Source: a virus
IMG/VR virus record: IMGVR_UViG_3300048034_000280
Coordinates: 1-24,491 of that record
DNA length: 24,491 bases
Direction: 5' to 3' (one strand)
The first letter of the stretch is position 1; each line of letters opens with the position of its first letter. This document shows positions 1 through 12,671 of this stretch, piece after piece. Under the pieces are notes generated by a model. That model was not told where the DNA came from. It made no database searches and was given only the letters and a program-made list of their open reading frames with translations. Made by a program: the position numbers and the translations under genes.

Positions 1-30
1 TGCTACATCCGCACAACTTATATATACAAT

Positions 31-162
31 TTAATGCAAGACTTTTTCGGCATTCTGCGCTAACTTAGCAGCGACTTCCAACCAATATTCTTTCGCCCAA
101 TCAGACTGAGCGTTCTCGTATGCCTTCATGGCATTACAGAGGAGACGGGTATAATCAGGCAT
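31..162 (-). CDS. Small hypothetical protein, 43 aa
   Basis: Found by translating the DNA by hand. ATG at 162-160, TAA at 33-31. The product is 43 residues, begins MPDYTRLLCN and ends NAEKVLH, and looks like one amphipathic helix rich in Ala, Lys, Glu and Trp. Its start overlaps the end of the upstream 78-residue gene by 8 nt, which suggests translational coupling. The upstream GATAAGAAG is only a weak ribosome binding site. It is the last member visible of a run of small early-type genes. I do not recognise a family. It could be a chance ORF, but the tight packing and sensible composition argue for a gene. Confidence 0.6.
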   Translation of the reverse strand: MPDYTRLLCNAMKAYENAQSDWAKEYWLEVAAKLAQNAEKVLH

Positions 163-391
163 TGAACTTCTTATCCGTTTTAAGTTGAGCCGCAGTAATT
201 TTGTGTTTCACAACTTGGAAAGTCTTATCTCCATGTTGTTCTTTGATTAGTTTAGAAGTCTCAATTACTTCTTTTAACTTAGCGGATGCTTTATCTTGAA
301 CGGCAGTCAATGACACACCCTCAAAACGTTTGGCTCCAATAGAACCATCCTTATAAGTTACTTCTAAATCAGCGTAATACATATGTGTCAT
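155..391 (-). CDS. Small hypothetical protein, 78 aa
   Basis: ATG at 391-389, TGA at 157-155. The product starts MTHMYYADLEVTYKDGS and looks like a small alpha/beta protein: an N-terminal beta hairpin, a central charged helix (about residues 28-50) and a Lys-rich C-terminus. The start overlaps the TGA of the upstream 53-residue gene as ATGA, so the two are probably co-translated. It belongs to the block of small genes transcribed from the sigma70-like promoter at 734-762. No family or function recognised. Such small early proteins of T4-like phages often act on the host during takeover, but nothing here shows that. Confidence 0.75.
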   Translation of the reverse strand: MTHMYYADLEVTYKDGSIGAKRFEGVSLTAVQDKASAKLKEVIETSKLIKEQHGDKTFQVVKHKITAAQLKTDKKFNA

Positions 392-549
392 TGATAATCT
401 CCAATCGCATTAATAACTTCTACACCATATTCATTGACCAATGTTTCTACACGAGCATCACGGTCTTCTTTGATACGAAAGTAGTAACCTTCTACTTCCC
501 CACCAGTCACAGAGGTATCGACCTCTACAAAAAATTTACCTAACTTCAT
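388..549 (-). CDS. Small hypothetical protein, 53 aa
   Basis: Found by hand translation. ATG at 549-547, TGA at 390-388. The product begins MKLGKFFVEVDTSVTGGEVE and ends INAIGDYQ. A GAGG ribosome binding site lies 7 nt before the ATG. The start overlaps the TAA of the upstream 51-residue gene (TAATG) and the stop overlaps the start of the downstream 78-residue gene (ATGA). Overlaps at both ends make it very likely real. It is acidic, with predicted beta strands followed by a helix. No family recognised. Confidence 0.75.
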   Translation of the reverse strand: MKLGKFFVEVDTSVTGGEVEGYYFRIKEDRDARVETLVNEYGVEVINAIGDYQ

Positions 550-704
550 TACTCAACCTCATATTCTACAATAACAACATTCTCTGCGAAACCCTTCTCG
601 ATGAAGTAGGCTTGTGCGCCCTGTGCTTCTTCGACAGTTTCGATTGCTTCAAACATACCAGCCAAAGTCCGACCCGTATCTGCATCCTTAATCAAATAAT
701 TCAT
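549..704 (-). CDS. Small hypothetical protein, 51 aa
   Basis: Found by hand translation. ATG at 704-702, TAA at 551-549. The product begins MNYLIKDADTGRTLAG and ends VVIVEYEVE. A good ribosome binding site (AGAAAGGA) lies about 7 nt upstream, nearly the same as those of the 80- and 85-residue genes. The stop overlaps the next gene's ATG as TAATG. It is the first gene after the promoter at 734-762. It looks like a compact beta-alpha-beta fold with an acidic C-terminal strand. No family or function recognised. Confidence 0.75.
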   Translation of the reverse strand: MNYLIKDADTGRTLAGMFEAIETVEEAQGAQAYFIEKGFAENVVIVEYEVE

Positions 705-733
705 AACGATTCCTTTCTCTCAATTACATATTA

Positions 734-762
734 ACTATACGGCATTCCGCATAGAATGTCAA
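734..762 (-). promoter_or_regulatory. Sigma70-like early promoter, TTGACA-N17-TATAGT
   Basis: On the minus strand the -35 box TTGACA (762-757) is a perfect consensus match. It is followed after exactly 17 nt by TATAGT (739-734), 5 of 6 matches. The -35 box overlaps the TGA of the 80-residue gene. The expected start site near 727 lies about 23 nt before the 51-residue gene. Host sigma70-type promoters of this kind are what T4-like phages use for early transcription. It probably drives the run of small genes ending at 31. Confidence 0.8.
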
Positions 763-1001
763 GCAAAAAGCGCCAAATATTCGGGATTATTTGTTTCTAA
801 AGTAACAAACGGCCCGAAGTATGATTCGAAGGCAACCAACAGGTGATTGTAGTCACCCGCCTGTAAGTCTTCCATGACTTCATCTTTATTGTAATCAAGT
901 TCCCGACACAGATTAGATGCAGCACCCAGAAGGACAAACGCATTGCCTTCGGGGCCATCTAGGTTGAAAACATATCCAGTATCATTGTTTTGACGTATCA
1001 T
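759..1001 (-). CDS. Conserved-looking small phage protein, 80 aa, unknown function
   Basis: ATG at 1001-999, TGA at 761-759, with an AAAGGA ribosome binding site about 8 nt upstream. The product begins MIRQNNDTGYVFNLDGPEGN and continues with a short hydrophobic helix (FVLLGAASNL), an acidic middle and an aromatic C-terminus. From memory, this N-terminal pattern occurs in small uncharacterised proteins of many T4-like and marine phages; I could not check this. It lies 13 nt after the 85-residue gene and shares its promoter. Its stop codon lies inside the -35 box of the next promoter. Confidence 0.8.
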   Translation of the reverse strand: MIRQNNDTGYVFNLDGPEGNAFVLLGAASNLCRELDYNKDEVMEDLQAGDYNHLLVAFESYFGPFVTLETNNPEYLALFA

Positions 1002-1014
1002 AATCTAATCCTTT

Positions 1015-1272
1015 CTAGTAGAGGTCAACACCAAGTTCGTCAGTGAGAATACCAGCGATAATCTCACGGTCAACGGTGTCACCACCGCCCCACCGATGTT
1101 CACCATCGATGAAGAACTGTTTATCACCACGCATCAGATAGATGTTAGTGGCTTCCATGATTTGTTCACGAGTAGCGAAGTCACGATTAGCATACAACTG
1201 ACCTTCACCATAGAACATCTCACAGTAGTCTGCGAAGTTCTGTTTCTCTTTAAAAGTAATTTCCGTAATCAT
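1015..1272 (-). CDS. Small hypothetical protein, 85 aa
   Basis: ATG at 1272-1270, TAG at 1017-1015, with an AAAGGA ribosome binding site about 8 nt upstream. The product begins MITEITFKEKQNFADYCEMF, is rich in aromatic and acidic residues, and has a central Gly/Trp stretch (HRWGGGDTVD). It is the first gene downstream of the late terminator and the first after the early-type promoter at 1304-1332. Its leader of about 25 nt has no evident structure. No family recognised. Confidence 0.75.
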   Translation of the reverse strand: MITEITFKEKQNFADYCEMFYGEGQLYANRDFATREQIMEATNIYLMRGDKQFFIDGEHRWGGGDTVDREIIAGILTDELGVDLY

Positions 1273-1303
1273 TTCTAGTTCCTTTCAACTCAACTTATAC
1301 TTT

Positions 1304-1332
1304 ATATTACAACAAGTATCAGGAATTGTCAA
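1304..1332 (-). promoter_or_regulatory. Sigma70-like early promoter, TTGACA-N17-TAATAT
   Basis: Minus strand: perfect -35 TTGACA at 1332-1327, spacer of exactly 17 nt, then TAATAT at 1309-1304 (4 of 6 matches to TATAAT). The sequence just upstream is the T/A-rich tail of the terminator and could act as an UP element. The same TGCTTGACA occurs in the promoter at 734-762. The expected start near 1297 leaves about 25 nt of leader before the 85-residue gene. It restarts transcription directly after the late operon ends. Confidence 0.7.
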
Positions 1333-1343
1333 GCACTTTTTTC

Positions 1344-1382
1344 AAAAAAAAAGCAAAAAAAAGGGAGACCCGAAGGTCTCCC
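1344..1382 (-). terminator. Strong intrinsic terminator with C(UUCG)G tetraloop after gp23
   Basis: Minus strand: perfect 8-bp stem GGGAGACC / GGTCTCCC (1382-1375 and 1370-1363) closed by a TTCG loop, giving the extra-stable C(UUCG)G tetraloop common in T4 terminators. It is followed by T8, GC and T9 (1362-1344). It lies about 40 nt after the gp23 stop. The plus strand has no T tract, so it acts in one direction, ending late capsid transcription before the early-type genes. Confidence 0.95.
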
Positions 1383-1384
1383 AG

Positions 1385-1407
1385 AAAAAGTGGTAGGTTA
1401 ACCCTAC
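1385..1407 (-). terminator. Weaker hairpin directly after gp23, possible first of tandem terminators
   Basis: Minus strand: 5-bp stem GTAGG / CCTAC (1407-1403 and 1397-1393) around a GTTAA loop, then CAC and T5 (1389-1385). It begins about 15 nt after the gp23 stop and lies just ahead of the UUCG terminator. The short stem and displaced T run make it a weak terminator alone; it may instead protect the gp23 mRNA 3' end. Confidence 0.45.
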
Positions 1408-1421
1408 TCTTTTTGTTATCC

Positions 1422-2732
1422 TTATGTAAGGATATTCGTAACTTTGAAGATACGATAGTATTGGTTGGTTTTGGCAGATGCCAGACCATTCGAAGGCGTA
1501 GAACCAACAAATGGGTTCGATGCCATACCGTAACGAGTTTTGAACCCGATACGAGGTTGGAATGTGTCTTCACCAACGGCCTTGACCATTTGCAGCGGAA
1601 CATATGGGCAGTAGAATACACCACTGTCATATGGGTTCTGACCTTTGTAACCAACGGTTACATAATCAGTCTGTGCATATGGGTCAATGTATACACGCAC
1701 ACGACCATTAAGGACACCAGCGAAGGTGTTACCTGTATCGTCTACTTGCAGATTGTTGCTGATTGCTGGAGAATAGTCCAAAGAACCAGCAGCGGCCAGT
1801 GCAGTAGCAACGTCTGAAGAACAGATTACTACGTTACCTTTACCACGGCGAGTTTCTTTAGCAATTACATTGGACTCACGGTCAATCTGAACCGTCAGAC
1901 CTTTGAATTTCTCAGCAGACCAACGACCATCGGCATCAGAACTCAAGTTAAACACACCATTGACGGTGACGTTTGACTGTTGAGCGCCGTTTTTAGCCTG
2001 TGAGTTAATCGTTCTGATAACTTCACGGTTGATTTCGGCCAAGATTTCAGTTGACAGAATGTTTGCCAACTCAGTTTCAGCGTCAAGACCGTGGATTGCT
2101 TTCAGGTCTTGTGCGAGTTCCAAGCTGTATTCTGCTTTCAGCGCACGGCTTTTGGCAGTAACAGTTTGGCGCTCAATAGTGAAACCCATTTCGTTGAACG
2201 AAGAACCACCAGTTGAACCCAGAGATTCTGCGTCATCAGTTGGCATACCACCAGCGGCAAGCGAAGACAAACGAGCGCCGTCTGAATCGATACCATTGTA
2301 ACCTGATGGGTTGTCAGAGTCGTGAGTGCCTGAGCTGTCGCCAGAGAACTGAGTTTCAGCTTCGTTGAACAGGGCTTCACGATTAGATGTTGAACCGCCT
2401 TGATAACGGGACTTCATCGCGAAGATGAGACCAGTTGGGCCATTCATTGGTTGAACGCCACAAACGTCATAAGCAATGAGGTTTGGCATGGCGCGGCGAA
2501 CCAGTGAAATTAACACTGGGTCAAAGTTGTTTACTGAACCCGTATTGTTTGCTGGTGCAGCTTCCGTCAGGAAACCTTGCTCAGCAGCACGGGTCTCGGC
2601 GATTGCTTTCTCTTGGTTTTCCAAGATAGCGGCAGTCACCGCACGGCGATGATGGTCTTTAATCTCGCCAGCGGAAGTTTCGTCCAATACTGGAGCCCAC
2701 TTCTCGATAAGGTTATCGTAAGATACTTGCAT
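1422..2732 (-). CDS. 23: Major capsid protein (T4 gp23-like)
   Basis: The product, 436 residues, is the T4 gp23 family precursor that forms the hexamers of the head. The N-terminal region is a helical scaffold-binding delta-type segment, followed by LTE|A at residues 55-58, an excellent match to the T4 prohead protease site (L/I-x-E before A/G/S). Cleavage would leave about 379 residues. Typical gp23 stretches follow: FDPVLISLVRRAMPNLIAYD at about 70-89, then GVQPMNGPTGLIFAMKSRY, and a C-terminus with IGFKTRYGMASNPF. It is shorter than T4 gp23 (521), as in several marine relatives. AAGGATAAG before the ATG serves as ribosome binding site and overlaps the gp22 stop. No late promoter box lies directly upstream, so it is probably co-transcribed with gp21/gp22. 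Two hairpins end the transcript. Confidence 0.97.
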   Translation of the reverse strand: MQVSYDNLIEKWAPVLDETSAGEIKDHHRRAVTAAILENQEKAIAETRAAEQGFLTEAAPANNTGSVNNFDPVLISLVRRAMPNLIAYDVCGVQPMNGPTGLIFAMKSRYQGGSTSNREALFNEAETQFSGDSSGTHDSDNPSGYNGIDSDGARLSSLAAGGMPTDDAESLGSTGGSSFNEMGFTIERQTVTAKSRALKAEYSLELAQDLKAIHGLDAETELANILSTEILAEINREVIRTINSQAKNGAQQSNVTVNGVFNLSSDADGRWSAEKFKGLTVQIDRESNVIAKETRRGKGNVVICSSDVATALAAAGSLDYSPAISNNLQVDDTGNTFAGVLNGRVRVYIDPYAQTDYVTVGYKGQNPYDSGVFYCPYVPLQMVKAVGEDTFQPRIGFKTRYGMASNPFVGSTPSNGLASAKTNQYYRIFKVTNILT

Positions 2733-2743
2733 TTTTCTTATCC

Positions 2744-3802
2744 TTATGCTTTAGGTGCTGTTTTACGAATGGCGGCGAGGTAGCTATCCATTGAAGAGGA
2801 GAGTTCAACCGTTTGGTCTGCGTCTTCAACAATGGCTTCGACTTCTTCGTCACCAGTTACTTGTTTTGCGAAATGCGACTCGACAACGATGGCAACTTTT
2901 TCAGCGAATTGTTCTTCACTGTCAAAATCGATATCGGCAACGAGTGATTTCAATTTCTCGACTTGAGTGTCTGCAAGTTCACGAGACGATTCACGAATAA
3001 TCGTTTCACGCTTGTAAACTTCCAATTCTTCAGTCGTGTCTATAACTTTCTGAGTTGTTTCGTTGAGGCGACCCTCAAGTTCTTCAACAGATTCAGCAAG
3101 TTCATCAACTAGGTCAACTTTGGATTCTGGAACTTCAATGTAAGACTCCGTGAAGAGGCCTTTCATTTTGTCCATGAAAGTCTCGGCAATTTCAGTGCGG
3201 AGACCGCTCTGGATTGCAACTTGATTTTCTTCCATCCAAGTTTCAACTACATAGTTCAGGTAGCTGTCTACTTTTTCTACAAGGTCAGACTTCGTAGAAG
3301 CAATTTCTTCTGCGAGTTCTTCCTTATACTGTGTTTCGATACGGTCTACTTCTTCAGACAGTTTCGATTTCACAGCTGCTTCAAAAATTACGGCGGTTTT
3401 AGCTTTGAACTCATCGCTGAGTGTAGCTTCAGACTCGACTAATGCATTAAGTTCGGCAGTAGTGTCAACACTGGTTTCAGCGATGACTTCATCTTCTTCC
3501 ATGTCTACCGATTCGTCCATCATTGCGCTATATGCGGCTTGAAGGTCTGTTTTTTTCATGCCATGCATCTTCATTGACATTACATTAATCATGCCCGCTT
3601 TTGTTTTTGGAGCAGGAGCTTGTTTGGCTTTAGTAGCGTCTGCAGCTTTGTCAACAGATGCGATTGCGTCTTCTTCATCAGTCGCGTTTGCATCTGGTTT
3701 TGCTTTAGCAGCAGGCGCATTAGCCTCATCGAGAGTTTCTTCCACGAATTCGTCTGTTACTTCATCGTGGAGTTCTTCGACTTGGTTAGTTTCTTCAGTC
3801 AT
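2744..3802 (-). CDS. 22: Prohead core scaffolding protein (T4 gp22-like)
   Basis: The product, 352 residues, is very acidic and mostly helical, with long coiled-coil potential at about 150-280. It is the main internal scaffold around which gp23 assembles, and is destroyed by the prohead protease. The stretch from 128 (LSDEFKAKTAVIFEAAVKSK) is characteristic of gp22 homologues. Possible protease sites of the L/I-x-E type include LVE|S near 121-124 and LAE|S in the coiled-coil half. It is longer than T4 gp22 (269) because of an Ala/Lys/Pro-rich N-terminal extension (about 28-70). AAGGAG lies about 8 nt before the ATG. It sits between gp21 and gp23, the canonical order. Confidence 0.95.
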   Translation of the reverse strand: MTEETNQVEELHDEVTDEFVEETLDEANAPAAKAKPDANATDEEDAIASVDKAADATKAKQAPAPKTKAGMINVMSMKMHGMKKTDLQAAYSAMMDESVDMEEDEVIAETSVDTTAELNALVESEATLSDEFKAKTAVIFEAAVKSKLSEEVDRIETQYKEELAEEIASTKSDLVEKVDSYLNYVVETWMEENQVAIQSGLRTEIAETFMDKMKGLFTESYIEVPESKVDLVDELAESVEELEGRLNETTQKVIDTTEELEVYKRETIIRESSRELADTQVEKLKSLVADIDFDSEEQFAEKVAIVVESHFAKQVTGDEEVEAIVEDADQTVELSSSMDSYLAAIRKTAPKA

Positions 3803-3812
3803 ATTAGACTCC

Positions 3813-4475
3813 TTACATACTAGATTTTAGTAACGAGAGGAAATTCTTAAACTCTCGAACACTTGTCTCATACAAGACAGGCTTCGGAGCCGTTTTAATT
3901 TCAGTCTCCATTTTTTCAATTACTTGAGGCTTCAGAACACCGTTATTCCAAACCCAGTCAACACCTTCCATGATTCCATTAACAAATGCATCTGGTGCTG
4001 ATGGGTCTTGCACGATGTCAACCGTGCTAAGAACAAAGTCATCTTTGACGACCATTGCGCCATTCTGTTGCTCAAGACTACCCATACCACGAGTTGACAC
4101 GCCTAGTTGAACACCACCATCAAGGAGACCTTTAACAATCTTACCCATTGGAGTATCCAATATTTGTGCCTTTCCTACCACATCATTACCCTCAAACTTG
4201 AGGTCTGTGATGAGGTGAGAAACTTTATCAAGGTTAACAGTTGGGCCTTCTGGGTGATTCAATTCACCCACGGCACGCTTCTTGTTAACCTGTGTATCAA
4301 CGTATGTCTTTACTGCCTTTTCCATAATTGGTTTAGGGTAAACACGGCCGTTGCGATTCTTTTTATCTGTCTGCGCGAAAACGCCCTCGATGACGTATTT
4401 CTTTTCGCCATCTTCTTTTTTCTCAATGATACATTGAAGGGTATCGTTTTCAGTATATTCAGTAATTAACTTCAT
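3813..4475 (-). CDS. 21: Prohead core protease (T4 gp21-like)
   Basis: This serine protease of the herpesvirus-assemblin-like fold (phage prohead protease clan) cleaves the scaffold and the N-terminus of gp23 during head maturation. The protein is 220 residues (T4 gp21 is 212). The histidine motif GELNHPEGPTVNLDKVSH is at 70-87 (His74 and His87 are visible) and the serine motif GVSTRGMGSL at 125-134 (candidate nucleophile Ser127). The acidic VDIVQDPSAPDAF follows at 152-164. The C-terminal 40 residues (after W177) are likely removed by self-cleavage. The start overlaps the stop of the 72-residue gene as ATGA, so translation is coupled. The gp22 gene follows after 10 nt. Confidence 0.96.
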   Translation of the reverse strand: MKLITEYTENDTLQCIIEKKEDGEKKYVIEGVFAQTDKKNRNGRVYPKPIMEKAVKTYVDTQVNKKRAVGELNHPEGPTVNLDKVSHLITDLKFEGNDVVGKAQILDTPMGKIVKGLLDGGVQLGVSTRGMGSLEQQNGAMVVKDDFVLSTVDIVQDPSAPDAFVNGIMEGVDWVWNNGVLKPQVIEKMETEIKTAPKPVLYETSVREFKNFLSLLKSSM

Positions 4476-4690
4476 GTCAATTCCTTTACTACTTGCATCG
4501 CAGACTTCTCTGCATCTTTCTGTGATTTGAAGGCATCCAGTCGGTCACCATCAATATACACAACGAATGGCAGAGAACCTTTCTCTTTAGTGATTAGAAC
4601 TGGGATTCTTTTAACCTTTTTATCAAAGACTACATCGCCTTTAGGTTTCCGTCCCTTTAATTCACTAATTAGTTCTTTATACGTTTTCAT
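4472..4690 (-). CDS. Small prohead-cluster protein, 72 aa, at the gp68-like position
   Basis: The product begins MKTYKELISELKGRKPKGDV and continues as a basic small alpha/beta domain with strands (VKRIPVLITK, FVVYIDGDRL) and a C-terminal helix with several Lys. It lies between the acidic core protein and gp21, where T4 has the minor core protein gene 68, but its sequence does not resemble an acidic core protein. The stop overlaps the gp21 start (ATGA). The ATG is only 5 nt after a perfect late promoter box (4696-4703), and no clear ribosome binding site lies between them, so either the mRNA is leaderless or translation depends on readthrough transcripts. Function unknown; a head-assembly role is inferred from position only. 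Confidence 0.8.
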   Translation of the reverse strand: MKTYKELISELKGRKPKGDVVFDKKVKRIPVLITKEKGSLPFVVYIDGDRLDAFKSQKDAEKSAMQVVKELT

Positions 4691-4695
4691 AGTAT

Positions 4696-4703
4696 TATTT
4701 ATA
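4696..4703 (-). promoter_or_regulatory. T4-type late promoter box TATAAATA, 5 nt from a start codon
   Basis: TATAAATA on the minus strand is a perfect match to the T4 late -10 element used by the gp55 sigma factor. It lies in the 41-nt gap before the 72-residue gene, within an imperfect palindrome (ATTATTT-N4-AAATAAT). The usual start site falls on or next to the ATG at 4690, so the transcript would have little or no leader. It could mainly serve gp21, gp22 and gp23 downstream. Confidence 0.7.
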
Positions 4704-4731
4704 CAAATAATGTTTTCAAGATAACAATTAG

Positions 4732-5100
4732 TTACTCTTCTGAGTCACTTTCTTCCGTTTCTTCTTCGGTTTCGGTTTCGATTTCTTCGATTTCGTCTTC
4801 GTCAACGGCATCAAGTTCATCCTCAACCTCTCCGTCCAACTCAATCGTCTCATCTTCGACTTCCTCGTCTGTGATGTCTTCTATATCATCTTCAACATCA
4901 TCATCGACATCATTAAAGATTGCTTGTGCAGTCGCAATTCGCTGTGCTTCAAGCGCATCTTCCATTTTGTCCTGAACGATACTTTTGAATGACCCTTCTG
5001 CATTCGCTAGGTCACCCGAAGTAATCTGATTGATAAGTTCTTCAACCGCATTAACATCTACGGTTTCAACTTCTTGTTCAAGTGTTTCTGATTCACTCAT
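4732..5100 (-). CDS. Acidic prohead core protein (gp67/gp68-like)
   Basis: From the ATG at 5100 the protein has 122 residues. Residues 1-60 form a helical segment with the pattern SGDLANAEGSFKSIVQDKM followed by EALEAQRIATAQAIFND, a motif I associate with minor core proteins of T4-like phages. Residues 60-122 are almost entirely Asp and Glu, recalling the very acidic T4 gp67. It probably forms part of the internal core with gp22 and is lost during maturation. The start is placed at 5100 because it lies 1 nt after the gp20 TAA and has AAGAGG about 11 nt upstream; an upstream in-frame TTG at 5133 would overlap gp20 without need. Whether it is the gp67 or gp68 equivalent cannot be settled from the sequence alone. 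Confidence 0.85.
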   Translation of the reverse strand: MSESETLEQEVETVDVNAVEELINQITSGDLANAEGSFKSIVQDKMEDALEAQRIATAQAIFNDVDDDVEDDIEDITDEEVEDETIELDGEVEDELDAVDEDEIEEIETETEEETEESDSEE

Positions 5101-5101
5101 T

Positions 5102-6610
5102 TTACATATCCTCTTGTTCATCTTCGTCTTCAACGGAGTTTTCGCCTTCGACTTGTTTTTTCATTTCTTCGATGTCCTCATCAGACATCATCATTACGTT
5201 TTTCATTGCCCATTCACGCGAGAAATATTCACCAACATACTGTGATACTTGGTCAAGAGTCTGAAGTCTGTTCTGCAACAGTTCAGCATTCTTGAGTTCA
5301 GTGAAATGGTTATCTCTTTGGAAGTTTATACCCACACCGCTTTTCCATGTATCCCAATCCTGTTCAGTAATAATACCTTTGAGAATAAGTTGTTTCTTTA
5401 GAATATTTGTAAACAGAGTTGCGAAACGTTTACGGAGACGGTCAATAAACTTTTGGAACTTAACTTCATCTCGTGAGATTTCAGTTGAACGACCCAAAGA
5501 GAATTGTGCTTCCTGTTCGAGACGATTAATCGGGACATTCAGTGAACGATACAATCTCTTTTGGAAATAGAGAATATCGTCAATCTGTCCTAGATTTTCC
5601 CCGCCAGGAAGTGTTGAGATTTCAGTTCCTCTACCACCTTCACGGCGAGGCAACCAGAAATCTTCCAACATCGACATATGCTTACGGTCATCTTTCAGTT
5701 GACCCGTATTTGAATCGTAAACAATCTTATTGCGATAACGAGACATGATGTCTTTCATATACGCTTCAGATTTATTACGGGGCATATTACCAACATCGAT
5801 ATAGAAGATACGGCGTTCTGGCGCCCGTGCGAGACGGTAGATAACCAGACTGTCTTCCATCATGCGAAGTTGGTTGATTGGTTTTAGTGCCTTATGGAGA
5901 TAGGATACAACCTGTCTCCTACTAGGGTCAAGCAGACCACTAGAAACATACGACACACTATCAGGAGAAAGTCTTACGCCTTGGTTTTGTCCTGCTTTCT
6001 CTTGATAGATATAAAATTCGTTGACCTTCTCAACTACCTTTGCGCCAGTTGCTTGGTCTTTTCTATATTTGACTTCTTTTACTTTGCGAATCTTCGCAGC
6101 GTCAATAGGACGGATTTCTTGAATACCCGCTTTGAGATTTGATTCATTTACTACGAGGTGGTGATAAACACGACCATCAACATAAAATGAACGGAAGATA
6201 TCATGACCCAGTTCAGTGAATCTCAACATACTATAGATGTTGTTGAACTCTTCGGTCATGGTTTTCTTGATATTATCAGGTGCATCTACATCGTCCAGAT
6301 TTAGTTCACATGATACACCAATCTCCGAACCCACGATGGACTCGTTAACGATATCTTCGATTGCAGCGTCTACTTCAGGGTGTGCTGCGACACCACGATA
6401 TTTGATAATTAGTTGTTGGTTGTCCTTCGCCTGTGCGCCATCCATGTCGATGTATTGACCATAGTGACTACCAGACGCAGTAACATACCCCGCACCATCA
6501 TCATCGGTGGGGGCAACAATAGACTTTAGTTTTTCCTTTTCTTTCGGTTGTTCGGAAGCTCTCTTGAGTTCAAAACCAAACAACTTAAAAATACTATTAT
6601 CGTCTGCCAT
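5102..6610 (-). CDS. 20: Portal vertex protein (T4 gp20-like)
   Basis: The product, 502 residues (T4 gp20 is 524), forms the dodecameric ring at one head vertex through which DNA is packaged and which starts prohead assembly. Signature stretches are ARAPERRIFYIDVGNMPR near 258-276, DFWLPRREGGRGTEISTLPG near 317-336 and FSLGRSTEISRDEVKF near 370-386. The C-terminal 25 residues are very acidic (VEDEDEQEDM). GGATAG lies about 5 nt before the ATG. It follows gp19 after a 67-nt gap holding a stable hairpin, and is followed 1 nt later by the acidic core gene, so portal and core proteins are probably made together. Confidence 0.97.
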   Translation of the reverse strand: MADDNSIFKLFGFELKRASEQPKEKEKLKSIVAPTDDDGAGYVTASGSHYGQYIDMDGAQAKDNQQLIIKYRGVAAHPEVDAAIEDIVNESIVGSEIGVSCELNLDDVDAPDNIKKTMTEEFNNIYSMLRFTELGHDIFRSFYVDGRVYHHLVVNESNLKAGIQEIRPIDAAKIRKVKEVKYRKDQATGAKVVEKVNEFYIYQEKAGQNQGVRLSPDSVSYVSSGLLDPSRRQVVSYLHKALKPINQLRMMEDSLVIYRLARAPERRIFYIDVGNMPRNKSEAYMKDIMSRYRNKIVYDSNTGQLKDDRKHMSMLEDFWLPRREGGRGTEISTLPGGENLGQIDDILYFQKRLYRSLNVPINRLEQEAQFSLGRSTEISRDEVKFQKFIDRLRKRFATLFTNILKKQLILKGIITEQDWDTWKSGVGINFQRDNHFTELKNAELLQNRLQTLDQVSQYVGEYFSREWAMKNVMMMSDEDIEEMKKQVEGENSVEDEDEQEDM

Positions 6611-6638
6611 AACTATCCTATCAAATCTTTACGATAAA

Positions 6639-6661
6639 GGGGTAGGGATTACCCCTACCCC
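6639..6661 (-). terminator. Hairpin between gp19 and gp20, possible partial terminator
   Basis: Perfect 9-bp stem, GGGGTAGGG / CCCTACCCC on the plus strand, around a 5-nt loop. In the minus-strand RNA it is followed only by UUUAUCG, so the U tract is poor. It lies 17 nt after the gp19 stop and about 28 nt before the gp20 start. It may reduce readthrough from the very abundant sheath/tube mRNA into the portal gene, or mark an mRNA processing or protected end. Confidence 0.6.
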
Positions 6662-6677
6662 CCTACTTATAACCAGA

Positions 6678-7205
6678 TTAACTGGTAGTGCCTGATTCCC
6701 AATATTGAACTTGGAACTCGACAGTGAACTCTTCCACAGCGTCTACGGTTTCGTAACTAACTTCAATTTCACTGACGTTAGTTGGGAAACAACCACGGAA
6801 GTTGTATGTCTTGAGTGAGTTTCCATCTCTGTCCAACTGTTCAACAACGAGGTCTGCTTGATAATCCACTGGATTGGTCAAACCTGTGTTTGCCTGATGG
6901 GCATTGATACCGTTCATCCAACGTTCCATTGCGTTACGGATGGAGAAATCGGTGTCATTGAGAATGGTTACTGTCCACGGTTCAAAGGTGCGGTCTCCAG
7001 CAATTTTCAACTGGCGACCACGGAATGGGATTTCAATAACATTCATTACTGATGCTGGCAACTGTGCAGTCTTGCAGAGGAAAGATGTAAGTTCTACATC
7101 ACCGCCTGCATAGCCTGGAAAGTTGACAGTGGCTTTGAAGAGATTAGGACGAGCGCCCCCACCTCTTAGTTTTGACTTAAAGTCATCTACGCCTAGAATT
7201 GCCAT
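6678..7205 (-). CDS. 19: Tail tube protein (T4 gp19-like)
   Basis: The product, 175 residues (T4 gp19 is 163), is the subunit of the inner tail tube, made of stacked hexameric rings. It begins MAILGVDDFKSKLRGGGARP, followed by typical tube-family stretches: FLCKTAQLPASVMNVIEIPF near 42-61, GRQLKIAGDRTFEPWTVTIL near 63-82, and the C-terminal strand region EFTVEFQVQYWES. AAGGAGTAAGGA gives a strong ribosome binding site. The gene starts 13 nt after the gp18 stop, the usual sheath-tube pairing. Both are made in large amounts and probably share the late promoter at 9052-9059. Confidence 0.97.
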   Translation of the reverse strand: MAILGVDDFKSKLRGGGARPNLFKATVNFPGYAGGDVELTSFLCKTAQLPASVMNVIEIPFRGRQLKIAGDRTFEPWTVTILNDTDFSIRNAMERWMNGINAHQANTGLTNPVDYQADLVVEQLDRDGNSLKTYNFRGCFPTNVSEIEVSYETVDAVEEFTVEFQVQYWESGTTS

Positions 7206-7218
7206 TTTTCCTTACTCC

Positions 7219-8988
7219 TTAAACTGTGCCTACAACTTCTTCAAACTCTACACCAGTTCTAACTGCGACAAAGTTCAGTGTCACGAAGTTGATAGAACGG
7301 GCAGGCTTGATGAAGATGCTTGCGATGAATTCATTGCGGTCAACCACAGCAGGAGTATTGTTCGTTTCGTCACATTGAACTCGGAAGTCCGTGATACCAC
7401 GGCGACCTTGAATCTCACGAAGGAACGGTTCTACGATGTTGACGAATTCTGCACGAGTAAACTCGTCATTGAATTCGAACATTACACCGCGACCTGCTAT
7501 TGCAATCGCACGTTCAATGGCGAGGAAGAGACGGCGAACATTGATTCGGTCAAATGCACTTGGACGCGATTCGTTTGTTTTGTCACCGAAGAGCATGATG
7601 CCCTCGCCTGGAATGTTTGCAATTGGGTTGATACCAGCTTTATACAACTGGTCTCTTTCCGCTTTGGTTGGTGATACAATAATATCTGTGATACCCAGAT
7701 ATCTACCACGGCGTGAACCAGCAGGCGAGAACCACGGTGCAGCAACCAAGTCGGTAGCAGCCATGAGACCCGCAGTGGACGATGCGGCAGGAATCTTGAT
7801 GTATTTGTCATTATACTTGTCAAATACCTTCAGATAGTTATTGTCTTGAACCAAGTAGGAAGACTTTGTATATGTGTTGTTACATGCCAGAATTGCAGTG
7901 TTAGTGCCTGATGTGACAACCGCAGCACGAGATGGTGATACGACTGCAACACAGTCTTTACGAGTAGACGCAGCGGTTGAAACGAGGTCATTTACAATGG
8001 TCGTTGCCGTTCCGTCTGTGAGTGATTCTGGAGCAATAAGGAAATCAACTTCAATATTGTCTTTGTCTTCGAACTTATCGAATCCGCGAAGGACATCATC
8101 AGTTCCCAGTGAACTTGAAGTTACACCTGATAGGAATGAGAATGTGCTTTGGGAGGACGAATATTTGAAGTCTGATTTGAAGTCTTGCGCGCCATTGGTC
8201 GCGTTAACTCCCCAGTTCGAACCAATGAAGTCGGATACGGATGCAGAGTCACCTGTGTGACCTACACCAGCATATACCCATTGTGAACGGAGTTTCAGAA
8301 CATCTTTGAAATAATTTGATGTTCCATCTGATGCCTTGGCGTTTTTAGCAACAGACAAGAATGGGAAAGTTTCCAGAACTGTTCCAGCAGTTCCAGTAAT
8401 TTCACCGTCTTGGTCAACAACAGCAACGTGGATTTCATCGTTTTTACCACCAAGAGCGGACACATAAGATGATGTGCCTGGAGCAGCATCAAAGTTATCT
8501 TTATATGACCATGCAGCAAAGTTGGTAGCCCCACCATTATCGGAGTCAGAACCCACAATAGAGATTTGGAGAGAGTTGCCAAGTTCGCCTGGATATTTAG
8601 CGATAAATGCGCCATCAGAACTGTCAACTGACAGACCTTCGAAAGCATCCAAGTTATTAATTGCCTGTGCTGACAATGTGCCAAGGTTTGTGTTATTAGC
8701 AACAGCATTTTTGCCATCACTATCCTGTTCGCGCACAACAAACAGCGTGTTAGAATATCTTAAAAAATACGCGGCAGAGTGGAAATCTACCGTGTTGTTA
8801 TCGGTTGGTGCGGAGAAAGTAGATACAAGACCTGACTCGTCTGATACGAGCGTGGCCACGCCTACTGGCCCCCAACCGAAATTTCCTACAAACGCACCCG
8901 TAGAAGTTTGAACGTTAGGCACTACGCCCGTTAGGTCAATCTCTTTAACGGTTACGGCAGGAGAAGCAGAGGGTGTAAAAAGTGCCAT
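7219..8988 (-). CDS. 18: Contractile tail sheath protein (T4 gp18-like)
   Basis: The product, 589 residues (T4 gp18 is 659), is the subunit of the contractile sheath around the gp19 tube. The N-terminus MALFTPSASPAVTVKEIDLT followed by FVGNFGWGPVG is typical of sheath proteins. The variable middle (about 80-350) is Ser/Asp/Thr-rich and probably surface exposed. The conserved C-terminal assembly domain spans about 400-589 and includes APWFSPAGSRRGRYLGI, GEGIMLFGDKTNESRPSAFD, and the final strand region IKPARSINFVTLNFVAVRTG. AAAGGAAAAAG provides the ribosome binding site. A perfect late promoter box lies 64 nt upstream, giving this gene its own transcript with a normal leader. Confidence 0.97.
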   Translation of the reverse strand: MALFTPSASPAVTVKEIDLTGVVPNVQTSTGAFVGNFGWGPVGVATLVSDESGLVSTFSAPTDNNTVDFHSAAYFLRYSNTLFVVREQDSDGKNAVANNTNLGTLSAQAINNLDAFEGLSVDSSDGAFIAKYPGELGNSLQISIVGSDSDNGGATNFAAWSYKDNFDAAPGTSSYVSALGGKNDEIHVAVVDQDGEITGTAGTVLETFPFLSVAKNAKASDGTSNYFKDVLKLRSQWVYAGVGHTGDSASVSDFIGSNWGVNATNGAQDFKSDFKYSSSQSTFSFLSGVTSSSLGTDDVLRGFDKFEDKDNIEVDFLIAPESLTDGTATTIVNDLVSTAASTRKDCVAVVSPSRAAVVTSGTNTAILACNNTYTKSSYLVQDNNYLKVFDKYNDKYIKIPAASSTAGLMAATDLVAAPWFSPAGSRRGRYLGITDIIVSPTKAERDQLYKAGINPIANIPGEGIMLFGDKTNESRPSAFDRINVRRLFLAIERAIAIAGRGVMFEFNDEFTRAEFVNIVEPFLREIQGRRGITDFRVQCDETNNTPAVVDRNEFIASIFIKPARSINFVTLNFVAVRTGVEFEEVVGTV

Positions 8989-9051
8989 AACTTTTTCCTT
9001 TTTTTCGTTATCTAATTATAAGTTCTCATAATACGGTAGTTTCAATACTTT

Positions 9052-9059
9052 TATTTATA
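9052..9059 (-). promoter_or_regulatory. T4-type late promoter box TATAAATA before gp18
   Basis: Perfect TATAAATA on the minus strand, followed by AAAGTATTG, in the 90-nt gap between gp17 and gp18. The expected start near 9045 leaves a leader of about 57 nt before the gp18 ATG at 8988. This is the best-placed late promoter of the window and fits high, separate expression of sheath and tube. No -35 element is needed in T4 late promoters. Confidence 0.88.
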
Positions 9060-9078
9060 ACTAGAGAAATTTGTAGAA

Positions 9079-10695
9079 TTACCACTCCTCAATACCTATG
9101 TTAGAGTGTTGAAATGTGTGCCATTCGGTATCTTTTATGATATCCTGTTGTTCCGCATAGTCCAAACCATCATCTATGAACCCTACGGGTGGAACATCGT
9201 CTTCTATTTCCTTCATCTTCTTTGCGAACATCATCTCTTTTAGATTGATGTCGGTCATATCAGAGAAGTATTGGGTGGAGATGAAATATCCAAACATGAC
9301 CAAGTTCATCATCAAATCATCATAATTACCATCAGATGCCTCGTAGGATTGACCTCTAGAGACAAAGGTGGATATTTCTAGAATTGCGTTTTCATCGTTT
9401 ATCTGGAGTTTCTTATTTTCGAGAACATCTTTGATTGAGGAACATCCCAGTCTTTTGACCTTTCTGTTCATCTCGATACCAATACGGTCTGCTTTTATCG
9501 CAGATTCCATATGGATATTATCATACTCCAAGTCTTGATATAGTCCATTACAAACTACTTGTCCCGAATCATTTGACTCTATAATAACATATGCTTGATT
9601 ATAGAGGTTTGCATACTTATATATAACATTAGGAAAGAGTAATGGAGATATAGTGTTATTGCGATAGACGGCAACCTGTTCAAAAGGTCTCGTGCCAATG
9701 TCAATTACCGTAAAGGTTGAATAATCCTGTCCTCTTCCCTTTGATACATCCACAGTCATGATATATTCATGATTGGGTTGCGGTTTTTCATAGACCAGTA
9801 GGTCTCCACCTTCAAGAACATCTGTGGGTGGTTTAGCGCGAAAAGATAGTAACGTCTCGGCGTTTATTAGGGTATCGCCTGTCCCAAAGAAGGTGTTACC
9901 AAACTCTTGGTCAAACTGTAATTGAGATGTATTTGCTATTGTTTGTCTTTTCCAGTCTTCGTCTCTGCCTGGGACATCCCACCAGTTGACTGTGAATGGG
10001 ATGAACTCATTAACCTTTTGAACTGAGCCCTCCCAGATTTTATGGAATGTATTGCCAATTCCATTTGCAGTTGACGTAATAATGACTTTTGTTTCCTTAC
10101 CCGCTGAGACCACAGGATAGGTTGAAGTGTAGAATTCATTCGCCTTTTCCACAAATGCAAATTCGTCAAGAAATAGTAAGTTAACAGACATACCGCGAAT
10201 GGAACTACCAGAGGTAGCACTGGCAATAATGCGACTATTATTACTAAATTCAATAGAACCTTTGTTGAGTGCTTTGCAGCCAGGTTGTAGGAAGAAGGGA
10301 AGATTCTCCAACATGAGAGTAACCCGCGCCAACATTTCACGAGCGACTTGCCCTTTGTTTGCGAGAATTGCAATCGTCTTCTCACTATGGAAACAAGCAT
10401 ACCATAGTAGATAACCAACAGAGCTAATCGACTTACCCGATTGACGACACGCCAGAACGATAGAAAACCTGTTATCATTAAAGTGTTTGAACATCTGCTC
10501 TTGATAAGGATATAAGTCGAAAGGGACTAGTCCATCATCGAGAGAGATAACTTTTAGGTAAGTTTTGCAGAAGTATATAGGGTCTCTGCCACATTTGACA
10601 TATTCCTTAACTTCTTCTTCTGTGAATTGATGCTGAACACCATCCCGTTTTACATTGGGATTACCAAGATACGACTCATTCTGATTTATCAGCAT
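9079..10695 (-). CDS. 17: Terminase large subunit (T4 gp17-like)
   Basis: This is the ATPase motor and nuclease that packages DNA through the gp20 portal. From the ATG at 10695 it has 538 residues (T4 gp17 is 610). ATPase domain: Walker A-type CRQSGKS at 83-89, Walker B LLFLDE at 173-178, coupling motif ITSTANG at 206-212. Nuclease domain, RNase H-like: MTVDVSKGRGQDYS with Asp316, YVIIESNDSG with Glu373, and GNYDDLMM with Asp459/460, matching the T4 Asp-Glu-Asp triad. The start is chosen at 10695 because GGGAG lies 9 nt upstream; an earlier in-frame ATG at 10719 has no ribosome binding site. It overlaps the end of gp16 by 20 nt, as expected for coupled terminase subunits. Confidence 0.97.
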   Translation of the reverse strand: MLINQNESYLGNPNVKRDGVQHQFTEEEVKEYVKCGRDPIYFCKTYLKVISLDDGLVPFDLYPYQEQMFKHFNDNRFSIVLACRQSGKSISSVGYLLWYACFHSEKTIAILANKGQVAREMLARVTLMLENLPFFLQPGCKALNKGSIEFSNNSRIIASATSGSSIRGMSVNLLFLDEFAFVEKANEFYTSTYPVVSAGKETKVIITSTANGIGNTFHKIWEGSVQKVNEFIPFTVNWWDVPGRDEDWKRQTIANTSQLQFDQEFGNTFFGTGDTLINAETLLSFRAKPPTDVLEGGDLLVYEKPQPNHEYIMTVDVSKGRGQDYSTFTVIDIGTRPFEQVAVYRNNTISPLLFPNVIYKYANLYNQAYVIIESNDSGQVVCNGLYQDLEYDNIHMESAIKADRIGIEMNRKVKRLGCSSIKDVLENKKLQINDENAILEISTFVSRGQSYEASDGNYDDLMMNLVMFGYFISTQYFSDMTDINLKEMMFAKKMKEIEDDVPPVGFIDDGLDYAEQQDIIKDTEWHTFQHSNIGIEEW

Positions 10696-11020
10696 CAATA
10701 ACCACTCCCGATTCTGCATGAATCAGTCTTTGTAAGTCTGTAGTCGTGCCTACAAACAAGTTGTTCGTGGTATTACCTAATTGTTTAGGTTCATCCTTTT
10801 TGTTAATGTCTTTGTTTTTTTTGTTCAAATCCATCAACTTGTCGTTGATATCTGCCATGTTTTTCATCATAGTTGATAAAACTTCAAACGCACGAGGATG
10901 CTCCGATTCACGAGCAACTTCAATCATAAGTTCCATACTCTCTTTACCTTTTTCTAAAAGGTCATAATACGTTTCGCGAGAGTATTCATAATCATCTTTA
11001 ACATTTTTTTCTTCACTCAT
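10676..11020 (-). CDS. 16: Terminase small subunit (T4 gp16-like)
   Basis: The product, 114 residues (T4 gp16 is 164), is the regulatory terminase subunit that forms rings and stimulates gp17. Diagnostic for the family are DYEYSRETYYDLLEKGKESM near 10-29 and ARESEHPRAFEVLSTMMKN near 35-53, followed by a Lys-rich helix (KLMDLNKKNKDINKK) and a C-terminal segment with FVGTTTDLQRLIH. The start overlaps the gp15 stop (TAATG) and the end overlaps the gp17 start. The N-terminal DNA-binding part is short compared with T4. Confidence 0.93.
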   Translation of the reverse strand: MSEEKNVKDDYEYSRETYYDLLEKGKESMELMIEVARESEHPRAFEVLSTMMKNMADINDKLMDLNKKNKDINKKDEPKQLGNTTNNLFVGTTTDLQRLIHAESGVVIDADKSE

Positions 11021-11799
11021 TAAGCACTATCCAAATCAATTTCAGTAAATCCATAATCACTGTCAGCATTTATATTAGTTGGGTTTGGTGTAAGTTTCAG
11101 TGTTTTGATATACACATCACTATCATTAAGACCCGATTCTTGTAAAAATAAGTTATTACGAACATCGCGGATGATAGAACCATTATTCTCTGGGCCATAC
11201 AACGCAATCTTCATATCAAAATCTAAAGTATAAAGAATTGTTCTTCTTTGTTCTATTGCACCTTCAAAATCATCAGAGAAGGTAACTCCACTTAAAGTTA
11301 TAGGAACATCTTCTGTGAGTGAACTAATATCAGAGAACGGTTTAATCGTTACCGAATATTGTGGTGCAAAGTATGGTAGTATCTGTTCTACAACTTGTAA
11401 TGCGTCATCCTGTGATTTCGCATATATGTTCAGTTGGAACGAGATTATATATGGTGTTGCAGTATAAATTCTTTGACGAGTTAGAACACTATCTGATACT
11501 GCCTTCGAGATATTGTTCATCTTGGGTAGTTGACGTTCTGCGTCATACGACATGTTCGTAATCTCAAATGACATACGAGGTAACTTGATTGCGACCCTAC
11601 GTTCTGCCTGTTCACCTTTATTCATTTCCTCTAGACGAGAAATGAAGTTTCTTTTAGGTGCATATGATAAAGGAACTTTGACTTGAGATATAACTACACC
11701 ATTACTATTAGTTCGGAGGACATGTAGATTATTGAACAGTGACCCAAAGACGGATACCGCAGTTCTCACTCTTTTATGATAGAAGTGTGTGCCAAACAT
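11020..11799 (-). CDS. 15: Tail sheath stabiliser and completion protein (T4 gp15-like)
   Basis: The product, 259 residues (T4 gp15 is 272), forms the hexameric ring that caps the tail and connects it to the neck. It starts MFGTHFYHKRVRTAVSVFGS, with later stretches SYAPKRNFISRLEEM, LPRMSFEITNMSYDAERQLP and PYFAPQYSVTIKPFSDI that are typical of the family. Both ends overlap neighbours by one base (TAATG), so gp14, gp15 and gp16 are translated in chain. GGAGATATCGGATA lies before the ATG. The order gp13-gp14-gp15-gp16-gp17 is that of T4. Confidence 0.95.
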   Translation of the reverse strand: MFGTHFYHKRVRTAVSVFGSLFNNLHVLRTNSNGVVISQVKVPLSYAPKRNFISRLEEMNKGEQAERRVAIKLPRMSFEITNMSYDAERQLPKMNNISKAVSDSVLTRQRIYTATPYIISFQLNIYAKSQDDALQVVEQILPYFAPQYSVTIKPFSDISSLTEDVPITLSGVTFSDDFEGAIEQRRTILYTLDFDMKIALYGPENNGSIIRDVRNNLFLQESGLNDSDVYIKTLKLTPNPTNINADSDYGFTEIDLDSA

Positions 11800-12671
11800 T
11801 ATCCGATATCTCCAAATGGATTAGACTCTGAGAAATCAAGGAAGTCTGATTCGAAGTCATCAAAGATTTTATTCTGTGCGTCTTTCTGTATCTCCTGAAG
11901 TTCCTGAACCAAATTAGGTGTTGCTACTGCACCAGACGTTACACCTGTTACCTGTTTGTTTGTGGCAAAGGTGTGGAACTTACCGTCAGTTGAACCAACA
12001 TGTGCAACCTGAAGAACTCTATCAGAGTCAGACCAATCAGTGACTTCACCTTCCATATTATAACCCGTATGAACTTGGGTGATAGTTTCACCAACAGTAT
12101 AACCACTAGATGCAGAGTCCATAGTCAACGCATATTGAAAAGCGCCTTCATACTCAATCACATCAATACTCGCGATTTCTGTATCAAAATCTTCATCATT
12201 ATATTCAAACAATTCGCAAGTCATACGGAATGTAGGCAGATTACTCAACTGATAAAAAGGAGTCTCTGTCTCTACTTTCTGGATTTGGAATATGGAGTTG
12301 GAAAGTGTCAGATAGATTAAGTCACCTTCACGAGGCCGAAAGTTCTGTGAGTCAAGTCGAGACCCTACGAGTTGTTTCCATCTTTTTCTTGAAACAATGA
12401 AGTTTGCTTGGTCTCTTAGTTCGATACCGAATTTGGTAAACAAGTCTCCCTCACCATCAAACGCTTCAGTATTCTCAATATACATCTCCACCTTGTAGGC
12501 AGAACCGAAACGTGACGGAACATCGTCAAGAAAGACTTTATCTTTATTGACTATTTCTCTTGGAAGGTAGTAAACATCCTGACCATACATTTTGAGGGCT
12601 TCAATAATGATGTCCTCATACATGTTCTGTTCAGAACGAACTCCTTGTTTGAAATACGGGTTCGTTGCCAT
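11799..12671 (-). CDS. 14: Neck protein (T4 gp14-like)
   Basis: The product, 290 residues (T4 gp14 is 256), is part of the neck that closes the filled head and binds the tail. It begins MATNPYFKQGVRSEQNMYED and contains YGQDVYYLPREIVNKDKVF near 29-47 and FRPREGDLIYLTLSNSIFQI near 111-130, both typical of gp14. The last 90 residues are Ser/Thr/Asp-rich and less conserved, and account for the extra length. The gene starts 4 nt after the gp13 stop with GGATAATTAA ahead of the ATG, and its stop overlaps the gp15 start. Confidence 0.95.
   Translation of the reverse strand: MATNPYFKQGVRSEQNMYEDIIIEALKMYGQDVYYLPREIVNKDKVFLDDVPSRFGSAYKVEMYIENTEAFDGEGDLFTKFGIELRDQANFIVSRKRWKQLVGSRLDSQNFRPREGDLIYLTLSNSIFQIQKVETETPFYQLSNLPTFRMTCELFEYNDEDFDTEIASIDVIEYEGAFQYALTMDSASSGYTVGETITQVHTGYNMEGEVTDWSDSDRVLQVAHVGSTDGKFHTFATNKQVTGVTSGAVATPNLVQELQEIQKDAQNKIFDDFESDFLDFSESNPFGDIG

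Follow-up and report, generated by a model that had tools for sequence, protein, structure and literature searches.

The four small genes at the start of the window probably make up an early-expressed operon of accessory proteins, lodged in a variable island within the late head and tail region of the phage and remodelled gene by gene at the junctions where its members overlap. The window (24,491 nt) spans one IMG/VR contig in full. It holds four genuine genes, a terminator after gp23 and strong sigma-70-type promoters; in relatives a late promoter restarts transcription at a tail-tube gene, the content of the island runs from nothing to about 5.6 kb, and the overlaps are conserved although the neighbours change. 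In the scheme we favour, host polymerase would transcribe the island at once after infection and gp23 and the tail genes would wait for late transcription; ribosomes would pass from gene to gene through coupling at the overlaps; the small proteins would bind targets in the host or in competitor phages, which would account for the turnover of these genes; and single genes would be swapped, with the operon left unbroken, when co-infecting relatives recombine by homology at the conserved junctions.

By its gene content, the source phage is a T4-like marine virus. PHROG and Pfam matches identify a T4-type set on the minus strand (gp23, scaffold, protease, portal, tail tube, sheath, terminase and neck genes), and the T4-like label of the first-pass annotation is upheld by the match of gp23 to PF07068 together with the PHROG head and tail matches. 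The best named relatives of the window gp23 are phage C48C1 (71%), the Methylophilales phages Melnitz (63%) and Pelagibacter phage HTVC008M (63%), and contig L002 is near-identical to the window (99.9%). Two genes resembling a tail-tube gene match phrog_45; the first lies between sheath and portal and the second, as seen in relatives, beyond the island.

Table 1. Coordinates of the features discussed (positions in the window unless a contig is named)
Feature	Position	Strand	Remarks
tRNA-Gly(ACC), first 12 nt	1..12	-	Cut by the window's end
43-aa ORF (P1/P0001)	31..162	-	Overlaps the 78-aa ORF by 8 nt; closes the island in many relatives
78-aa ORF (P2/P0002)	155..391	-	ATGA start; predicted beta-beta-alpha-beta
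53-aa ORF (P3/P0003)	388..549	-	TAATG start; acidic
51-aa ORF (P4/P0004)	549..704	-	First gene of the chain; predicted beta-beta-alpha-beta; acidic
Sigma-70-type promoter TTGACA-17-TATAGT (11/12)	734..762	-	Before the chain; -35 overlaps the stop codon of the 80-aa ORF
80-aa ORF, same island	759..1001	-	phrog_1933, E 3.5e-8; function unassigned in PHROG match
85-aa ORF, same island	1015..1272	-	phrog_7799, E 2.5e-13; function unassigned in PHROG match
Promoter-like TTGACA-17-TAATAT (10/12)	1304..1332	-	Opens the island
Terminator-like hairpin GGGAGACC-TTCG-GGTCTCCC with T tract	1363..1382	-	After gp23
gp23 major capsid protein	1422..2732	-	PF07068 E 7e-147; phrog_138; upstream border of the island
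Tail-tube-like genes (phrog_45)	6678-7205; L010 2539-3066		
Second micro-gene chain (53, 89, 65, 53, 73, 84 aa)	L107 4211-5476		Also in L106, L108 and L109; same promoter type

A chain of four small protein-coding genes

The chain of 51, 53, 78 and 43 residues described at first pass, for which no strand had been given, lies entirely on the minus strand, where the order of ORFs after gp23 is 85, 80, 51, 53, 78 and 43 aa. Its three junctions, read from the sequence, are also as described: a TAATG with a 1-nt overlap at 549, an ATGA with a 4-nt overlap (388-391) and an overlap of 8 nt (155-162). Shared ribosome binding sites had been claimed as well, which does not hold for the first three ORFs, each preceded by its own Shine-Dalgarno-like stretch of moderate strength (equalled at 5-11% of 5,000 random positions). 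The 43-aa ORF probably relies on coupling, because the stretch before it is poor (equalled at 32% of 5,000 random positions), and for this gene the claim may stand. It is plausible that the 51-, 53- and 43-aa ORFs were missed by length cut-offs. Upstream in the island, the 85-aa ORF has relatives in 15 named records, all of them cyanophages.

Comparison with related loci indicates that all four ORFs are real, protein-coding genes under purifying selection. A tblastn search, as the first-pass annotation had proposed, recovered homologues from fetched viral loci in 14 (51 aa), 15 (53 aa), 16 (78 aa) and 27 (43 aa) contigs, the window not being counted and each contig being entered once; some homologues are cut by contig ends (one partial homologue each among the 51-aa and the 78-aa matches). 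The median dN/dS is 0.22 for the 51-aa, 0.23 for the 53-aa, 0.20 for the 78-aa and 0.11 for the 43-aa family, well below 1 throughout, and 0.13 for the gp23 capsid gene; 8 of 36 pairs in the 43-aa family (28 of 36 defined) and 2 of 55 in the 78-aa family were saturated. Unconserved frames and equal rates of synonymous and nonsynonymous change had been named at first pass as grounds for giving the genes up; the frames are conserved, and pN reached or exceeded pS in none of 155 sequence pairs.

That these are chance ORFs in a non-coding leader might be suspected from their size, all being under 80 aa, and from their lack of a PHROG or Pfam family, and it can be dismissed with near certainty. It is already refuted by the conservation of the ORFs, whose order and frames are kept in relatives. 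Moreover, among 5,000 dinucleotide shuffles of the 704-nt segment none contained four ATG-started ORFs, each of 40 aa or more, chained by junctions of this kind, in keeping with the earlier remark that chance ORFs would not overlap so neatly; among shuffles of the whole window, 2 of 300 did on the minus strand and 0 of 300 on the plus strand. Confident folds predicted for two of the four proteins, described below, also argue against it.

The chain proteins had no relative by tblastn among 50,697 named phage records, nor had the 61-aa protein of related islands or a distant version of the 43-aa protein among named phages, and a search of genome contigs with the 78-aa profile found no relative. 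Members of the 78-aa family also occur in other phages among the fetched loci (L106-L109), in a different chain of overlapping micro-genes that lies beside a DNA methyltransferase gene (Table 1).

An early-type unit within a late region

The hairpin behind gp23 recurs in relatives: 76 of 80 loci (58 of 60 distinct segments) have a stem of at least 7 pairs followed by a T tract no more than 150 nt from the stop codon of gp23, compared with 7 of 400 random pieces. The sigma-70-type promoter before the chain lies 29 nt from the 51-aa ORF start and has a counterpart before the 51-aa gene in all 12 distinct homologous contexts, compared with 66 of 3,960 random 110-nt pieces. Predicted sigma-70 promoters have been taken as early in Melnitz (PMC9004378), and TATAAATA is the late promoter of T4 and KVP40, with NATAAATA in S-PM2 (PMC2984593). 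An exact TATAAATA occurs within 80 nt before the tail-tube start in 31 of 33 distinct cases from related loci, compared with 51 of 3,960 random pieces, and before all 22 of the starts that come directly behind the 43-aa gene; this promoter at late genes, like the head and tail gene set, is what a T4-like phage should carry. The window itself has three exact copies, each upstream of a minus-strand ORF and all outside the island, a number that is not significant for the window alone (1.18 expected; 15 of 100 shuffles reach 3).

With a terminator behind gp23, promoters of the sigma-70 type ahead of the small genes and a late promoter at the tail-tube gene, the island reads as an early unit set in a late region, having both a host-type promoter and a separation from the late genes. 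This anatomy supports the early class that the first-pass annotation had suggested for the small proteins, and the chain is probably switched on early in infection, a timing read from promoter resemblance. Since a terminator may be read through, late co-transcription with gp23 could also occur.

Taken together, promoter-like sites show hardly any enrichment in the window, at 34 against 26.7 +/- 5.2 in positions 1-12000 and, in a further count, 43 against 35.9 +/- 5.2. The intergenic promoter-like sites of the fetched loci follow an extended pattern, TTGACA-N5-TG-N10-TAnnnT, in which the extra TG at spacer positions 6-7 is present in 87-88% of 95 distinct sites; inside long ORFs the figures are 68% and 58% of 31 sites. 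The pattern, which was derived from a site set that includes both window matches, occurs in the window only in these 2 places, both in the island (expected 0.07; 1 of 100 shuffles reaches 2), and it is perhaps a lineage-specific early promoter consensus.

A variable island and its junctions

The first-pass annotation had not seen the context of the chain, which in relatives lies in an island between gp23 and the second tail-tube gene. Across 27 loci with both borders on one strand, some of them near-copies, the gap between these genes measures 59-5,577 nt with a median of 3,489; the tail-tube gene lay out of reach in another 64 loci. The smallest gap, in phage C48C1, is 59 nt (88 nt by the annotation of the record). 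The exact four-gene chain is not the usual arrangement and is rearranged in most relatives. Fourteen contigs hold all four genes (L003 with a partial 51-aa gene), and the 51- and 53-aa genes are adjacent in only 4 of them (L002, L003, L014 and L015), the others having a 61-aa gene or more in between. This 61-aa gene is often found there, or in place of the 78-aa gene before the 43-aa gene, and L008-L010 have another ORF between the 53- and 78-aa genes.

Several other genes border the island in particular contigs. A tRNA-Gly(ACC) follows the 43-aa gene directly and is complete in L002 (5697-5770), L003 (582-655) and L017 (220-293); a similar tRNA-Gly with TCC is located elsewhere in three other loci (L007, L012 and L013). 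The Gly anticodon ACC is rare in bacteria, where GCC, UCC and CCC are usual. Next to the island in L002 (5832-6965), and with its own strong promoter, is a gene of 377 aa whose product carries a DruA (Druantia) domain (PF14236, 38 bits at a cut-off of 27; phrog_19197), a phage-borne relative of a defence protein. In L122 the end of the 43-aa homologue overlaps the start of a 372-aa gene (5268-6386), which shows weak similarity to AMP-binding enzymes (E 2e-4, short of the Pfam cut-off).

The 43-aa gene keeps its overlap although its upstream neighbour changes. Among 41 distinct contexts, a count that includes near-copies but no exact duplicates, it lies behind the 61-aa gene in 25, behind the 78-aa gene in 11 and behind the 53-aa gene in 1; in the other 4 the partner was not identified. 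All 37 known partners overlap the 43-aa gene, 30 of them by 8 nt, 4 by 4 nt and 3 by 11 nt. When L003 is compared with L002, the first 228 nt differ at 2 positions, the next 196 nt at 77 and the following 296 nt at 9; the divergent 196 nt fall wholly inside the 78-aa gene, the ends of which match, making this a candidate replacement of a single gene, confined to its interior. In eight loci with the 53- and 78-aa genes adjacent, synonymous conservation is highest at their junction. In the 53-aa gene, synonymous-codon identity is 0.86-1.00 over the final 13 codons and 0.60-0.73 before them, apart from one 6-codon bin at 0.84; in the 78-aa gene it is 0.78-0.94 over the first 18 codons and 0.46-0.63 beyond. 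This signal fits recombination at the junction and equally a constraint on translation initiation or on RNA, which the data do not separate.

We tentatively propose that the overlapping start/stop junctions (the ATGA and the 8-nt overlap) could serve as conserved recombination sockets, at which mini-genes would be exchanged singly by homologous recombination within a few dozen nucleotides. Exchange at an overlap would couple a newly acquired protein translationally into the early operon at once, and if this is so, phage genes would overlap not only to compact the genome but also as a plug-in standard that allows rapid arms-race evolution, giving a testable reason for the overlap of small genes, namely exchange without loss of coupling. 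A different account, which is quite possible though not the one we prefer, has the junctions conserved for RNA-level control, through translation initiation or a structured RNA, with the changes due to drift and rare insertions and the overlaps having no special role in recombination. It draws support from the inclusion of the Shine-Dalgarno stretch and the start of the 78-aa gene in the zone of high synonymous conservation; the reach of that zone, about 18 codons into the 78-aa gene, and the L003/L002 replacement lying wholly inside a gene with matching ends argue against it, each from few observations.

Possible roles and relation to known systems

AF2 models made for two of the four chain proteins, those of 51 and 78 aa, are both confident beta-beta-alpha-beta folds (mean pLDDT 93.3 and 86.8). 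Every member of the 51-aa family (net charge -8 to -4) and of the 53-aa family (-6 to -4) is acidic; in the other families charge varies. In the viral fold library the lowest E was 1.8e-3 with the 78-aa model and 4.1e-2 with the 51-aa model, nothing lying at or below 0.001. Among solved structures the best matches were 1j27 for the 78-aa model (Z 6.9, rmsd 1.5, 61 aligned) and 4ev1 for the 51-aa model (Z 4.3, rmsd 2.1, 48 aligned), from which we draw no function because both fall under the level that the tool calls common. Sequence profile searches of the PDB gave nothing below E 0.02, the one match of the 51-aa profile being FixJ (E 0.31); PHROG scans of all family members gave weak, scattered matches only (best E 0.001, phrog_5190); and the chain proteins had no Pfam match above cut-off. 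Several of the small proteins looked like beta-beta-alpha-beta folds, but we do not claim common ancestry for them, since profile-profile comparison gave probabilities of 0.2-10%, though the two AF2 models share the order of their elements. Of small early proteins that serve host takeover or counter defence, the 51-aa protein resembles T7 Gp2 (2wnm; VIA-align Z 3.8, rmsd 2.7, 46 aligned) and the anti-CRISPR AcrIC9 (8hjj_A; Z 3.8, rmsd 2.5, 46 aligned) in size range, acidity and its small predicted beta/alpha fold, but both scores are tied with those of unrelated proteins and below any useful level, and there is no sequence match; the resemblance of the model is a lead.

The early-type promoters, small size, turnover and dispensability of these genes, which are missing in C48C1, suggest that their products may be directed at the host or at competitors. 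For the targets suggested at first pass, host polymerase, nucleases or defence systems, the family and fold searches gave no convincing match. Two other roles can be weighed against this evidence. The genes might belong to a selfish or addictive cassette of toxin-antitoxin pairs or of immunity against co-infecting phages, serving phage competition rather than host takeover. Such a cassette would suit tiny genes in overlapping pairs, the exchange of partners at a fixed overlap, purifying selection and the DruA-domain gene that adjoins the island in L002 and its near relative L003; we think it unlikely, given that none of the six small window proteins matched a PADLOC model, that the chain proteins lack a Pfam match above cut-off and that genes are exchanged singly and not as fixed pairs. 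It is similarly improbable that the small genes are late ones, read through the gp23 terminator and encoding minor head or tail proteins or assembly factors. Their strand, their place between gp23 and a tail-tube gene, and the position of the 43-aa gene directly before the latter (33-45 nt in 28 of 41 contexts and 18 nt in one) are what this would predict, but it has to contend with the terminator found so widely after gp23, with the island's own sigma-70-type promoters, with the absence of an exact TATAAATA from the island of the window, and with C48C1, where the island is missing although the head and tail genes stay. An early operon of accessory proteins remains our preferred reading.

The analysis adds at least four conserved protein families, without named-phage relatives or convincing PHROG matches, to a T4-like marine lineage, and it points to the stretch from gp23 to the second tail-tube gene as a site where related phages keep early accessory genes. 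Because the site is bounded by two core genes, a pangenome of candidates for host interaction could be collected by anchoring on both. The available portions of PMC9004378, PMC4503421, PMC7029224, PMC3950731, PMC2984593 and PMC4177764 contain no description of this island that we could find, which is not proof of its absence in print.

As described in the available text of two reports, PeSLs combine a stem-loop and an early promoter between core genes and bound variable small early genes (PMC4503421, PMC3950731). The island is like these in having a hairpin (1382-1363) and a promoter (1332-1304) behind gp23, and in consisting of variable insertions between core genes with empty or nearly empty sites in relatives, C48C1 being the smallest. 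A genome with PeSLs should carry the composite motif in many near-identical copies; the 24.5 kb of the window contain 2 matches to the extended promoter pattern, which was drawn from a set including both. Unlike at a PeSL, exchange within the chain seems to proceed gene by gene at overlaps that have neither promoter nor stem-loop, and the one clear replacement, between L003 and L002, ends within a gene near the overlaps and not at a promoter. Variable insertions between conserved structural genes are likewise known from the hyperplastic region g15-g18 of cyanomyoviruses (PMC2984593) and from the gp14-side host-recognition island and other hypervariable regions of pelagimyophages (PMC7029224), as far as the available text of these sources describes them; here, in contrast, the site runs from gp23 to the second tail-tube gene, the genes are much smaller and each group has an early-type promoter. 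'Semilegitimate' recombination at conserved regulatory signals, including translation initiation regions, has been proposed for T4-like phages (PMC4177764), and our proposal shares with it the use of small conserved translation-initiation sequences as joints for exchange; it differs in that the joint would be an overlapping start/stop junction, with a candidate single-gene replacement (L003 versus L002). We place the island among the plastic regions and the PeSL-type shuffling already known from T4-like phages, as available portions of those accounts present them (PMC4503421, PMC4177764, PMC2984593, PMC7029224), and what seems to set it apart is the exchange of genes one by one at overlapping junctions.
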